From the NCBI GenBank assembly GCA_017537745.1, contig JAFYKF010000008.1, positions 1-33,414 of the forward strand: DNA of 33,414 bases. Direction: 5' to 3'. A program made the translations under genes and the position numbers. This document shows positions 6,791 to 11,399 of the stretch, piece after piece (position 1 is the first letter of the stretch; every line of letters starts with the position of its first letter). Under the pieces are notes generated by a model. That model saw only the letters and a list, made by a program, of their open reading frames with translations, did not search any database and was not told where the DNA came from. Source of the stretch: Candidatus Saccharimonadota bacterium (lineage in GTDB: Bacteria; Patescibacteriota; Saccharimonadia; Saccharimonadales; Saccharimonadaceae).

Positions 6791-6872
6791 ATGACGGGTC
6801 CTGCCGGATCTTCTCCTCCCCCGCTTCGCTATGGCTTAGCTGGGGCCCCTAGGTTTGTTGCCCGTCTGGATT
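6791..6872. repeat. hairpin-prone GC-rich element across the secretion ATPase stop codon
   Basis: A GC-rich stretch with terminal inverted repeats GACGGG/CCCGTC (6792-6797 and 6867-6872), an internal GGGGCCCC palindrome and CCCC/GGGG arms spans the end of the ATPase gene and most of the spacer before gyrB. On the minus strand its core (CCCCAGC, then AGCGAAGCGGGGG) loosely resembles the core of the miaA palindromic element (CCCCAGCGAACG). It may be a third, diverged member of that family or an intergenic hairpin acting as a terminator. It has no T-tract. Confidence 0.4.
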
Positions 6873-8177
6873 ATTTTTGTTTAACCAGGCGTCCAAAAAT
6901 CCTTCCTGAGGCTCTTCAGAGCCCTCAGAAGGGGCTTCTGGACTTGGAGACGGGTCTTCAGGCGTTTTGAGCTCATGAGCGCTCCAGCGGTCCTGTATTT
7001 CCTTTTCAACCTCAGCACGAGTTTTGGCATATTTGGTAGCAGAGTATACCTTGAGAGATTCCATCAGCTCTTCGTTTGGTTCGCCCATCGGGGCTGGGAG
7101 ACCCATTGTAAAGGGGGCGGATGGCATATCAAACATCATAACTTTCGCCACAGCAGCGAAGTTTGGTGTCTTGGTGAGATCTTCGGCGTTAAAGGTTGGC
7201 GAGAAGGCTTTAGCCATCAATTCGGCATCTGTAATACCGATACGACCGCAGATGATGGTACCGACGTTACCAAGTAGCGCTTCCCTAATTTTCTCGGTGA
7301 GCTGAGTCATAAACTGGTTGGCAACAATGAGGTTAAGACGATACTTACGAGCCTCAGAGAGGATTGATTCAAAGCTATCTGTTGCGAAGTTCTGAAACTC
7401 GTCTACGTAGAGACAGAAATCTTTACGCTCATCCTCTGGGATATCCTGGCGGCTCATAGCGGCTTGCTGGAATTTCATGACGAAAATCATACCAAGAAGG
7501 TTGGCATTGATGTCGCCGAGACGACCCTTAGAGAGGTTGACGAGGAAAATTTTCTTGTTATCCATGATTTCGCGAATATTAAACCCTGATTTAATCTGGC
7601 CGAGGGTGTTGCGCATGATGGTGTTAGCGATGAAAGGACCCCACTTAGAGGCAAACCAGGTGGTAACTTCGCCGGCGTCGTTAGATTTTTGTGAAGCTGG
7701 GAACTCTTTAGTCCAGTAGTCAAAGACAGCTTTATCAGTGACATATTTTAGCTTAGATTTGACGAACTCAGGGTCAGTAAAGCATTGAGGGATATCGATA
7801 AAGGTGGCGCCGGCTGGGTCGGACATTAAGAGGAGGGCAGCGTTCCTAAACATATGCTGACCACGTGGGCCAAAGAAACCTTGGTTATTTGGGTCGAAGA
7901 GTGACTGGAGCATGCTAATTCCCTCTTGAACGATGAAGTCTTTTTGGTCATCATTGGTGAATTCGAACATGTTCATTCCCACCGGATGCTCGATGTCGGC
8001 TGGGTCAAAATAGATAACATCATCAATACGCTCCTCTGGCACGCGCTTAAGGAGTGCCTCTACAGCATCACCGTGCGGATCGATAAAGGCGAAGCCGCGG
8101 CCGTCGCACATATCCTGAAAAGCAAGGTTTTCGAGGAAGACGGACTTACCCATACCGGTTTGGCCGATGATGTACAT
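6849..8177 (-). CDS. type IV secretion/conjugation-type ATPase, C-terminal part (frameshifted from upstream part)
   Basis: This frame holds the motor domain of a VirD4/TraG-TraD or HerA-like ATPase: Walker A GQTGMGKS at its start, FIDPHGD, a Walker B LYVDEF followed by QNFATDSFESILSEARKY (typical of TraG/TraD C-terminal regions), and a ANQFMTQL segment. The tail is Pro/Glu/Ser-rich. The first ATG here has no ribosome binding site and sits inside the conserved DRRRHMYIIGQTG motif. Reading this frame upstream gives RRKDRRRHM, so it is the continuation of the upstream frame after a -1 shift near 8199-8203. Restoring one base would give one protein of about 858 residues. Family membership is inferred from motifs; the substrate is unknown. 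Confidence 0.85.
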   Translation of the reverse strand: MYIIGQTGMGKSVFLENLAFQDMCDGRGFAFIDPHGDAVEALLKRVPEERIDDVIYFDPADIEHPVGMNMFEFTNDDQKDFIVQEGISMLQSLFDPNNQGFFGPRGQHMFRNAALLLMSDPAGATFIDIPQCFTDPEFVKSKLKYVTDKAVFDYWTKEFPASQKSNDAGEVTTWFASKWGPFIANTIMRNTLGQIKSGFNIREIMDNKKIFLVNLSKGRLGDINANLLGMIFVMKFQQAAMSRQDIPEDERKDFCLYVDEFQNFATDSFESILSEARKYRLNLIVANQFMTQLTEKIREALLGNVGTIICGRIGITDAELMAKAFSPTFNAEDLTKTPNFAAVAKVMMFDMPSAPFTMGLPAPMGEPNEELMESLKVYSATKYAKTRAEVEKEIQDRWSAHELKTPEDPSPSPEAPSEGSEEPQEGFLDAWLNKNNPDGQQT

Positions 8178-9424
8178 ATGACGACGGCGATCTTTTCGCC
8201 GAGGTAAATAGCTTTCTTATTGCCACGATATTCGTTGGTGCCGAGGAATAGACCCTCTGTCATGAGTTTGGCTGGGCCGTCAACCTGTTTGACAAGCTGG
8301 CGCTCAACACTGGTAGTAGGTATCGCATTCTGCTCCGGTAGATGATAAATAGAAGCCATTTCGACACTATTTAGGATGTTTTTATGTAGCTTTGTCGGGA
8401 AGAAACGAAAAGTATAATCTGTACAGAGTTTTTTGGTATCTTTAAGCATATTGACCTGGAAACCGTTAAATTGAGTGGTGTCAAACTGTGAAAAAGCGCT
8501 AATAACACCGCCTAAAATCGCATCTGAGCGGGCTTTGTCTTCGGAGCTTGCCACAATGCGGATTAGGGTTTCAAACGCAGGATAGCGCATCTTAGAATTG
8601 ATGGCATTGATTTTATCTTGATCGATGTTGTTAATCTGTTTGATTTCTTCTTTTTTCTCATGCATTTCTGGCACTTCGAAAGGGGCGCGGATAACATCGA
8701 TGACTGTTTGCCCAATTCCGGCACCACCGATAGTCTTTTTGGTTTCTTTACCAGATTGGATTAGTTTGATTTGGGATTTGCCGGCTTCGGACCAACTTTT
8801 GTGAGCAGGACGGAACAAAATTTGTACAGCTGCACCTTCGTTTTTGTTCAGGTTAGTGATTGCGTTTAGAATCGCCATGGAGGCATCACGCTTAGTATCT
8901 TCGTAAGTAGCGATAGGCAGATAGTAATCTTTAGATAGGTTTAATTCGGCACCAGAGATGGTGCTAGTGTCTATGCTGCCCTCAAAGATGTTTTCTTCGT
9001 CCTTCTCCTCAAGACGGGCTGTTGGATAGGCGGACTGGACGGCCTGTTTAACTACCTCTGTTAATTTGGCTGGCACTACGGCGTAATAATGGATAAAGCC
9101 ATTCGCAGCGATAATTTCAAAGGAAAAATGTTGTTGCCCATAGAGGCGGGCCTTGCGCCCTTTGGTGATTGTGGAAGCAAGAATGGAGTACATGGTCTGA
9201 GTTTTAGAGATTGCTTCGCTTGCAATATCGCGCTCATCGCGACTGCTACCAGCACTAACGTCATCAGTGGAGGGTGGCAAATGGATTAGGAGTGGCTTCA
9301 TCTTAAGACTGCGTTCGTATTTTTTGGCTTTTTTGAGTTTTCTAAGATGTGCGGCAGCAAAAAGCGAAATAATCAAGATGACCGCAGAGGCGACGATAAT
9401 TGCTACCACCCAAGGTTCCATCAT
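8060..9424 (-). CDS. type IV secretion/conjugation-type ATPase, N-terminal part (frame broken near 8200)
   Basis: The protein begins with a single N-terminal membrane helix (about residues 5-26), then a basic stretch and a ~380-residue mixed alpha/beta region of the kind found ahead of the ATPase domain in CPR TraD/VirB4-like proteins. Homology should stop at YRGNKKAIYL; the following residues (GEKIAVV and onward to the stop at 8060) are an out-of-frame read of the ATPase coding strand. A 6-bp hairpin CGGCGA/TCGCCG sits exactly at the break, which could favour a real indel or a sequencing error. Translation is coupled to the upstream gene: its TGA stop overlaps the ATG (ATGA). Confidence 0.8.
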   Translation of the reverse strand: MMEPWVVAIIVASAVILIISLFAAAHLRKLKKAKKYERSLKMKPLLIHLPPSTDDVSAGSSRDERDIASEAISKTQTMYSILASTITKGRKARLYGQQHFSFEIIAANGFIHYYAVVPAKLTEVVKQAVQSAYPTARLEEKDEENIFEGSIDTSTISGAELNLSKDYYLPIATYEDTKRDASMAILNAITNLNKNEGAAVQILFRPAHKSWSEAGKSQIKLIQSGKETKKTIGGAGIGQTVIDVIRAPFEVPEMHEKKEEIKQINNIDQDKINAINSKMRYPAFETLIRIVASSEDKARSDAILGGVISAFSQFDTTQFNGFQVNMLKDTKKLCTDYTFRFFPTKLHKNILNSVEMASIYHLPEQNAIPTTSVERQLVKQVDGPAKLMTEGLFLGTNEYRGNKKAIYLGEKIAVVICTSSAKPVWVSPSSSKTLLFRICATAAASPLSIRTVML

Positions 9425-9852: not shown

Positions 9853-10206
9853 TTACATTCGTTTTGCTACTAAAAATTCAGCTAAAAATAGAAAAGTTAG
9901 GATGAGCGCCATTGTCCAGAGGTTAATTGCGCCAAATGAGCGAGCCATAAGGACCATAATTGGGCCAAACGCGAGTACTGCAGAATAGAGGTAATCTTTG
10001 CCAACTAAAGTGGTCTTTTTAAAGGCGAGGCGATAAAAAGCCATCAAGCCGAGCGTGATGGCACCAAAGAGTGAAACATACAATGTTGTAAAAAATAATA
10101 AAACACCGAAAGGACCAATTTCCGTCGGTGATGTTACGTTTAGCATCAATGTTAAAGCTGCGAGTCCGATGATGCTGATTGTGATGATAATGCGGTTATG
10201 CTTCAT
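9853..10206 (-). CDS. small polytopic membrane protein
   Basis: A 117-residue protein with about four hydrophobic segments (near 6-25, 34-58, 75-95 and 95-112) joined by short loops, and a basic loop FKKTTLVGKD in the middle. No known family is recognised. It precedes the acidic protein and the secretion ATPase by 18 bp and so may be part of that membrane machinery. A TATAAT with TG extension stands 6 nt before the ATG and there is no Shine-Dalgarno sequence, pointing to a leaderless transcript. A longer transcript could also arrive from the structured region upstream. Confidence 0.75.
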   Translation of the reverse strand: MKHNRIIITISIIGLAALTLMLNVTSPTEIGPFGVLLFFTTLYVSLFGAITLGLMAFYRLAFKKTTLVGKDYLYSAVLAFGPIMVLMARSFGAINLWTMALILTFLFLAEFLVAKRM

Positions 10207-10212
10207 AGCTTC

Positions 10213-10221
10213 ATTATATCA
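10213..10221 (-). promoter_or_regulatory. extended -10 promoter, leaderless start of the small membrane protein gene
   Basis: The minus strand reads TGATATAAT, then 6 nt, then ATG. Start of transcription is predicted at the start codon. Confidence 0.55.
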
Positions 10222-10229
10222 CACTTTCT

Positions 10230-10606
10230 GATTTTGCCCCCAAGTATTATTGTGGGGGAAGGCGAAGTGGGTTATCTGGCACTATATAAATCAACTATTG
10301 GCCACAACCCTGCTTCGCGTTTCCCTTTTGACCGCTTCACGCTAGGTGAAGCATAGGTCCTTATTACTTATAATCTTTCGTTCTGTTTTTGTCGTTTTTG
10401 TGTTATGAGAAGGTGCTAGCGAAAGATTTAGTAATGCGCTCAACGCGACTTTGTTTCGCGGAGCTCTAGGTAATTCCTATTAATTGTAATTTATGGCTAG
10501 AAATTACCTTTTCGCCCGCCAAACTCTACGTGCGTTTTTGTTTTTTCTTTTGATTTTTCATGTTAATGTCCTTTTGTTTTTAGTTTTTGTCTTAGTCATC
10601 TCGACT
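10230..10606 (-). ncRNA. candidate structured RNA or long structured leader (six consecutive hairpins)
   Basis: This gene-free stretch can fold into a row of separate stems. They are GGTAATT/AATTACC (10469-10475 with 10502-10508); CGCG plus GCTC/GAGC arms (10438-10464); a 15-bp stem of AATCTTTCG/CGAAAGATT extended by ATTACT/AGTAAT (10363-10380 with 10420-10435); GACC-GCTTCAC/GTGAAGC-GGTC (10330-10359); GCGAAG-GGGTT-TGGC with GCCA-AACCC-CTTCGC (10262-10318); and CCCCCA/TGGGGG (10237-10258). A promoter lies directly upstream on the minus strand. It does not match RNase P, tmRNA, SRP or any riboswitch I recognise. It may be a free RNA or the leader of the downstream membrane-protein operon. The strand is inferred from the promoter only. 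Confidence 0.5.
10526..10561 (-). CDS. possible 11-codon Lys/Arg-rich leader peptide
   Basis: MKNQKKKQKRT is preceded by AAAGGA at a good 7-nt spacing and lies at the start of the structured transcript. Another tiny open frame (10558-10599, MTKTKTKNKRTLT) ends on it with an ATGA overlap but has no ribosome binding site. The content is what AT-rich DNA would give by chance, so the evidence is the spacing and the position only. If real it could couple translation to folding of the hairpins downstream. Confidence 0.25.
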   Translation of the reverse strand: MKNQKKKQKRT

Positions 10607-10612
10607 ACTTTC

Positions 10613-10641
10613 ATATTAGCATAAGTCTGATAAAAAAGCAA
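10613..10641 (-). promoter_or_regulatory. promoter of the structured RNA region
   Basis: On the minus strand TTGCTT (10636-10641) is 17 nt from TAATAT (10613-10618), which carries a TGC extension. Start is expected near 10606. Confidence 0.55.
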
Positions 10642-10654
10642 TAGTTTTGATCAA

Positions 10655-10777
10655 CTATTTTAATGTATTTTTTACAACATATGCCCCTATTCCCCTCTGT
10701 TCTAATAATTTATTCAAATTGTTGTATTTTTTACAATATAACATGCATTTTGGACAGAAATTTGTTTTGTTTTTCAT
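10655..10777 (-). CDS. possible 40-residue Cys-containing small protein
   Basis: The open frame begins MKNKTNFCPKCMLYCKKY and has a CPxC motif plus a third cysteine, a lysine-rich middle and a hydrophobic end, which is reminiscent of a small zinc-binding knuckle. No Shine-Dalgarno sequence or convincing promoter is seen, and base composition is as AT-rich as the surrounding spacer. It could be a decayed gene or chance. Confidence 0.2.
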   Translation of the reverse strand: MKNKTNFCPKCMLYCKKYNNLNKLLEQRGIGAYVVKNTLK

Positions 10778-10888: not shown

Positions 10889-11028
10889 GGAATATAAATT
10901 GGATAAATGGCGTATCCATTTTAATACATTTGGCAGTATTCTTCTCAAACGAACAAGTTCGTTTGAGTACGAAACTGCCTATGTATTAAAAATAAGCCTG
11001 GCGGCTTATTTTATCCAATTTATATTCC
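10889..11028. repeat. cloverleaf-like palindromic element next to tmRNA
   Basis: A perfect 19-bp inverted repeat (10889-10907 with 11010-11028) encloses three further stems: AAATGG/CCATTT (10905-10921), a long arm with ATACAT/ATGTAT, GGCAGT/ACTGCC and a perfect 11-bp tip CTCAAACGAAC/GTTCGTTTGAG (about 10924-10987), and AATAAGCC/GGCTTATT (10991-11010). The last doubles as the tmRNA terminator. No target-site duplication or transposase is seen. It could be a miniature mobile element or a converging-transcript terminator structure. Confidence 0.65.
10987..11013 (-). terminator. tmRNA terminator (bidirectional)
   Basis: On the minus strand AAAATAAGCC, loop GCCA, GGCTTATTTTT. The A-tail and T-tail make it work in both directions. 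It lies about 33 nt after the tmRNA CCA end. Confidence 0.7.
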
Positions 11029-11045
11029 CCCTAAATCTTATTCCG

Positions 11046-11399
11046 TGGTGGAGCTGCCGGATACTGCCTCCGGGTCCGAATTGCCACATGGATTTGAATC
11101 TACGTGCATAGTTTCCTGTTTCGTCTTGGCGGATATTGTTAGCTGCAGAAAACAAAACTAACAAATGCCATAGCCAATTTTCGTACTACCACTCGCTACT
11201 TTGACAGTCTTATTTCCGTTATATGATAATTTGCATTCTACGGAACCTCAAATACAAACCAGCCTACAAATAATTAGGCATAAGCAGGCATGTATGCAAC
11301 ATGCGCTACATTAGTGTTTTCAGCACTTATTTAATACTTACGGTATTCAATCGGCACGCATCAAATCTGTTAACGATCCGTCTAAGCTTTGTCAGCCCC
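11046..11399 (-). ncRNA. ssrA: transfer-messenger RNA (tmRNA)
   Basis: tmRNA rescues ribosomes stalled on broken mRNAs and tags the unfinished protein for degradation. The gene begins GGGGCTGACAAAGC and ends CAGCTCCACCA; GGGGCTG pairs with CAGCTCC to form the alanine acceptor stem, and CCA is encoded. The message-like part starts at GCT (11322-11324) and encodes AENTNVAHVAYMPAYA before a TAA stop (11274-11276). The T-arm position holds CCGGA/TCCGG with a 7-nt loop GGCAGTA instead of the usual TTCRANY loop. A TTCAAAT motif occurs in a separate hairpin about 40 nt further upstream. Length (about 354 nt) is typical. It is flanked by a TATAAT promoter and a terminator. Confidence 0.93.

Follow-up and report, generated by a model that had tools for sequence, protein, structure and literature searches.

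Genetic organization of the locus

The minus strand of the window (the whole 33,414-nt stretch of DNA analysed) includes a structured RNA locus of about 370 nt, adjoined on one side by a gene for a membrane protein (9853-10206) and the gene for a T4SS ATPase (6849-9424), and on the other by a tmRNA (11046-11399). The features of the locus are listed in Table 1. The T4SS ATPase is encoded here by two overlapping ORFs, and by one frame of approximately 820-1140 amino acids in relatives; the split is a frameshift or an assembly error. The tmRNA was detected with Rfam (87.5 bits) and missed by ARAGORN; it also precedes the RNA in the genera g1, g32 and g42. A long imperfect inverted repeat (GAATATAAATTGGATAAA...) occupies nucleotides 10890-11030, between the tmRNA and the RNA.

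Table 1. Coordinates of the features identified in and around the RNA locus.
Feature	Position	Strand	Remarks
Extended -10 (TGTGATATAAT) and start codon of the next gene	10204..10223	-	Six bases between -10 and ATG; leader variable in 97 homologues
3' hairpin CCCCCA...UUGGGGG	10237..10258	-	From sequence; lacks a U-run
Structured RNA	10237..10607	-	Runs from near the transcription start as far as the 3' hairpin; most genomes of the genus have a homologue; covariation, Rfam-negative
H6/H7 composite stem	10256..10325	-	H7 consists of two helices, double changes in 7/9 pairs; H6 from fold and inspection only
H5 hairpin GCUUCAC/GUGAAGC	10334..10352	-	Flanked by conserved AAGGAC and GGUCAA; 99.1% of cells paired, double changes in 5/8 pairs
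H4, two-part stem	10363..10435	-	Double changes in 14/14 pairs
H1	10514-10523 with 10454-10464 (arm 10454..10523)	-	Encloses H2; double changes in 9/9 pairs
H2	10498-10509 with 10468-10479	-	Inside H1; double changes in 5/12 pairs
Antisense segment CUAGCCAUAAAUUAC	10486..10500	-	Mostly H2 apical loop; complements infA mRNA from -7 across the start codon
Micro-ORF MKNQKKKQKRT*	10526..10561	-	SD AAAAGGA at 10569-10575; stop just before H1
5' hairpin AGUCGAGAUGACU	10594..10606	-	From sequence; recurs in homologues
Promoter TTGCTT-17-TGCTAATAT (TAATAT), TGC before -10 (extended -10)	10613..10641	-	Architecture present in homologues
Partial palindrome GTTGTA-n5-TACATT	10662..10678	-	Upstream of the promoter; possible regulator site
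Second palindrome copy TTGTAAAAAATACAA	10722-10736

The folding energy of the minus strand between 10225 and 10625 is -99.9 kcal/mol, compared to -71.8 kcal/mol (sd 5.6) for shuffled sequences (z = -5.0). No family of Rfam 15 matched the segment or 14 homologous loci at gathering or relaxed thresholds, and a search of both strands at E ≤ 5 gave nothing but chance matches outside the segment; RNase P, tmRNA, tRNAs and 16S were detected elsewhere in the window by the same approach. These results, together with the double changes found in homologues, confirm the preliminary description of an unrecognised multi-hairpin RNA, which had proposed an Rfam search and a test for covarying base pairs. As judged from its sequence and conservation, nucleotides 10237-10641 of the minus strand encode a real, conserved and independently promoted structured RNA that is new to Rfam. 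Its putative 5' end, placed from the -10 box at about 10607, lies beyond the stems.

As no SRP RNA was detected in the genome, the possibility that the locus encodes a disguised SRP RNA was considered; this was rejected, as the RNA has no match to RF00169 or RF01854 and lacks the domain IV motif. None of 119 genomes of the order had an RF00169 match above the cut-off (there was one weak match), and RF01854 was absent in the genome of the window, where none of the ORFs was seen to carry the SRP-GTPase motif DTAGR. This genome and the order may either lack an SRP pathway or have one that is highly diverged.

Conserved secondary structure

Compensatory changes were found in all seven major helices tested. 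For the 5' half, 67 aligned matches, which include several weak extra ones, mostly on the opposite strand, had 94.6% of cells paired and double changes in 28 of 35 pairs; the covariation score was 0.343 as opposed to 0.036-0.081 when the partners were slid. This alignment was fitted to the structure and so favours it, and the MAFFT alignment A1 agrees with it. The 3' half was 98.5% paired, with double changes in 12 of 17 pairs. The number of pairs with double changes in the two halves is far above that in the slid controls.

The apical loop of H2 is invariant while the H2 stem covaries, and this loop, rather than any of the stems, is the most informative feature of the RNA. Pairing within the RNA between the loop and GUAAUUU of H2 was rejected as a general feature: g32 carries compensatory changes in the H2 stem and keeps the loop unchanged. 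A second conserved loop motif, UAGYACMUU, is located in H4 (approximately 10409-10420); no target for it was found.

Complementarity to the infA translation start

The segment CUAGCCAUAAAUUAC is a perfect complement of GUAAUUUAUGGCUAG, the sequence at the 5' end and over the start codon of the mRNA of infA, the gene for IF-1. The H2 loop GCCAUAAAUUACA together with CUA from the stem permits 15 bp with infA, and the infA start is the one full complement of the loop in the genome outside its own gene. The two genes are separate, that of the RNA being on contig C7 and infA on contig C8. The infA start region consists of TATAAT, GAACTG and then GTAATTTATGGCTAGTC; judging by its distance from the -10, the G of GTAATTTATGGCTAGTC is presumably the first base of the mRNA or lies just after it, and the resulting leader has seven bases and is SD-less. 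The duplex was calculated at -22.2 kcal/mol, with the loop and the infA 5' end mostly unpaired.

The exact 15-mer is present in 122 of 295 genomes of the family, belonging to 5 of 61 genera, typically in two copies, one in the RNA and one in infA; the reversed 15-mer, used as control, does not occur in the 295 genomes. Positions -7 to +10 of infA are identical in 59 of the 61 species of the genus and -8 to -12 vary freely, while a control, the short-leader gene beside the RNA, is variable at the same positions. Both sites are present in 53 genomes; in 46 of these all 15 positions form Watson-Crick pairs, and the others pair by G-U or compensation, with a single mismatch in total.

The exceptions show how loop and target change together. 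In G178, a T to C change in infA is accompanied by an A to G change in the loop, so that GTAATCT is matched by AGATTAC. In G477, the other exception in the genus, the loop carries a different sequence, and drift in infA has altered the site's first base as well as codon 3, a correlated loss. In G334, of genus g160, infA reads GTAGTTTATGGCTAA and the loop UUAUCCAUAAACUAC: A to G and G to A changes in infA are mirrored by U to C and C to U in the loop, and one mismatch remains. Single loop variants in four genomes of the genus (G030, G024, G315 and G476) and in two of g42 (G227 and G354) all keep the pairing through G-U. The infA gene of g32 retains the site despite some 20 extra residues immediately after it, and that of g42 has a longer complementarity with the RNA. 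The apparent lack of the loop in G208 and G250 is explained by their assemblies, in which the syntenic T4SS gene is missing. Most of the genomes were assembled from metagenomes and they share common ancestry, so these counts are not numbers of independent events, and the clean compensations are few (G178 and G334). The pairing of the RNA with infA is strongly supported by these sequence patterns, and we infer that it takes place in cells.

The G-U pairs and the position of the complementarity also bear on the idea that a DNA-binding protein recognizes the same 15-bp site at both genes, the two copies evolving together. Complementary single strands do form one duplex site and there is a palindrome upstream of the RNA promoter, but the site is itself non-palindromic, always antisense, and situated within the loop of a hairpin and over a start codon, and the persistence of G-U pairing in loop variants without a change in infA is not predicted for a DNA site, which makes this the least credible explanation.

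Promoter, upstream palindrome and micro-ORF

The promoter proposed in the preliminary description was found exactly at 10613-10641. The architecture TTG-N16-18-TKnTA is present in all of 138 homologues, with 3.0 expected in shuffled sequences; a strict generic promoter scan did not call the promoter. The sequence GTTGTA-n4-6-TAYA occurs in 102 of the 138 homologues (0.9 in shuffles). Because in most cases it precedes the -35 by a constant 21-23 bp, regulated transcription of the RNA is plausible. Sites of the form TTGTA-n4-7-TACAA number only six in the genome, and a palindrome of the GTTGTA...TACAAC type is also found just downstream of infA (G000:C8:90277).

The tiny SD-preceded, Lys-rich frame noted previously proved to be real: 91 of 116 distinct sequences of the genus have an SD-led AUG with a stop within 32 nt of the UUUC of H2, as opposed to 13.5 in shuffles. 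The frame varies from about 2 to 18 codons, ends just ahead of H1 and, in 53 sequences of the genus, has its stop at one fixed distance. The stop codon is UAA in 61 cases, UAG in 30 and UGA in none (the UGA share in the genome is 14.4%). The last residue is P in 42, T in 24 and K in 19; Pro and Thr thus amount to 46% and 26% of the micro-ORFs, compared to 2.5% and 1.7% in the genome. In E. coli, a C-terminal Pro, and one Thr motif, before the stop have been reported to stall termination (PMC7246954). As regards a stall-type leader peptide, the position of the frame and the Pro/Thr-stop are strongly enriched in the genus and absent in g32, where the micro-ORF is at chance level (4/22); because of this absence the micro-ORF cannot be essential.

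Distribution

Of 60 relatives searched by blastn, 34 have the RNA, and nearly all of these 34 belong to the same genus. Searching 295 genomes of the order with a covariance model of the 5' half (R1) gave 50 with the RNA, from genera g1, g32 and g42, and a model of the 3' domain (R2) placed it at the same position in g28, g38, g160 and g166 and, weakly, in several more genera. The infA complementarity is absent in most genera reached by R2. Among the syntenic RNAs of other genera, only those of g149 and g160 had an infA complement significant against shuffles; that of G339 was borderline (p about 0.03 among 18 tests). In g166 the RNA is kept without an infA match, and its infA leader differs. 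Since the 3' domain is found in more genera, mostly without infA complementarity, the RNA is, as far as these models reach, older or broader than the infA loop, and the infA arm seems to be a module belonging to a single lineage. As g166 and further genera have the RNA or its 3' domain without an infA match, pairing with infA is probably not its sole or original role.

Among the matches listed for the 19-mer of the loop, all were from Candidatus Saccharibacteria, many of them from ruminant guts, apart from one other bacterial record. Two IMG/VR contigs contain the 19-mer without RNA-like upstream sequence; they were taken as chance matches, and viral carriage was rejected.

Possible function

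Three hallmarks of a trans-encoded antisense sRNA can be read from the sequence: a separate gene, a conserved complementarity to a translation start that coevolves with it, and a promoter architecture of its own. We favor, with a probability of about 0.6, the interpretation that the RNA acts in trans as an antisense RNA against infA, masking its start codon and lowering IF-1. The H1/H2 arm would present the loop, a 15-bp duplex would form over the infA 5' end, leader and start codon, and the covered AUG would be blocked for initiation, resulting in less IF-1. Repression is the simplest outcome to expect of a duplex over the AUG in an mRNA whose leader has seven bases and no SD. The micro-ORF would be translated, with slow termination at the Pro/Thr-stop beside H1, and in most species of the genus the ribosome ending on it could tune the antisense arm. 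We infer expression of the RNA, repression and gating by the micro-ORF from these arrangements. A further, tentative extension, which we regard as possible yet doubtful, is that of a translation homeostat in which ribosomes stalled at the Pro/Thr-stop report translation capacity and set the strength of the shut-off of infA; IF-1 would then be kept constant by an RNA instead of a protein.

The main rival to repression is that the RNA activates or protects infA, shielding its near-leaderless 5' end from decay or delivering ribosomes to it. The complementarity starts approximately where the mRNA should, -7 to -1 being invariant and -8 and beyond free, and the RNA carries an SD and a micro-ORF, all of which would suit such a role. 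However, the AUG itself lies within the pairing, there is no trans-SD near the paired AUG, and pairing of sRNAs over the AUG usually prevents initiation; we consider activation or protection rather unlikely.

The relationship could also be reversed, the infA mRNA being a signal that opens the RNA and alters its real output, either T4SS read-through or a function of the 3' domain. The RNA adjoins the same membrane-protein and T4SS genes, and the 3' domain is conserved more widely than the infA loop, but a separate -10 immediately precedes the ATG of the next gene, and neither a terminator-like site nor a U-run was seen; this reading is quite improbable. The preliminary description had left the choice between a free structured RNA, which stands, and a large leader of the secretion-ATPase operon, which is not favored. 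A cis-acting leader or riboswitch of the T4SS operon would agree with the synteny with the membrane-protein and T4SS genes, conserved in g1, g32, g42 and others, but it is highly improbable given the separate promoter-like -10 of the gene, the 3' hairpin without a U-run (a U-run follows it in only 3 of 87 homologues) and a loop that matches a remote gene, infA. No terminator-like site was found, and, given the conserved synteny, read-through effects into the T4SS gene are possible.

Comparison with known systems

Like trans-encoded sRNAs that mask start codons, the RNA has its own promoter and a conserved loop against the translation start of a remote mRNA. It differs from them in its length (about 370 nt), its several covarying domains, the SD-led micro-ORF beside the seed arm, and the single invariant, perfect 15-nt match to an essential initiation-factor gene. 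It shares with the kissing-loop antisense RNAs of plasmids a hairpin loop with all of the sequence that recognizes a translation start, but those are encoded in cis, opposite their targets, whereas the RNA and infA are on separate contigs and match over only about 15 nt. An SD-led micro-ORF with Pro/Thr before a stop located beside a helix recalls the stall leader peptides of the erm/tna type; in contrast to these, the micro-ORF varies in peptide and length, is absent in the sister genus and, as far as seen, controls no downstream gene. The tmRNA is also structured, has a short reading frame and is a genome neighbour, but the RNA has no Rfam tmRNA match and the genuine tmRNA is located some 400 bp upstream of it.

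Among the papers listed in literature searches, none dealt with antisense control of infA, with an RNA regulator of IF-1 of such a type, or with sRNAs of Saccharibacteria, a group of minute parasitic bacteria of the gut for which, to our knowledge, very few regulatory RNAs have been described. The sequences themselves supply the material for an experiment, namely the naturally compensated pairs (G178, g160) and the natural loss (G477). A Pro/Thr-stop micro-ORF beside an antisense arm would be a new coupling of ribosome state to an sRNA and, if the proposed interpretation is true, an essential, near-universal initiation factor would be under direct antisense control in Saccharibacteria.
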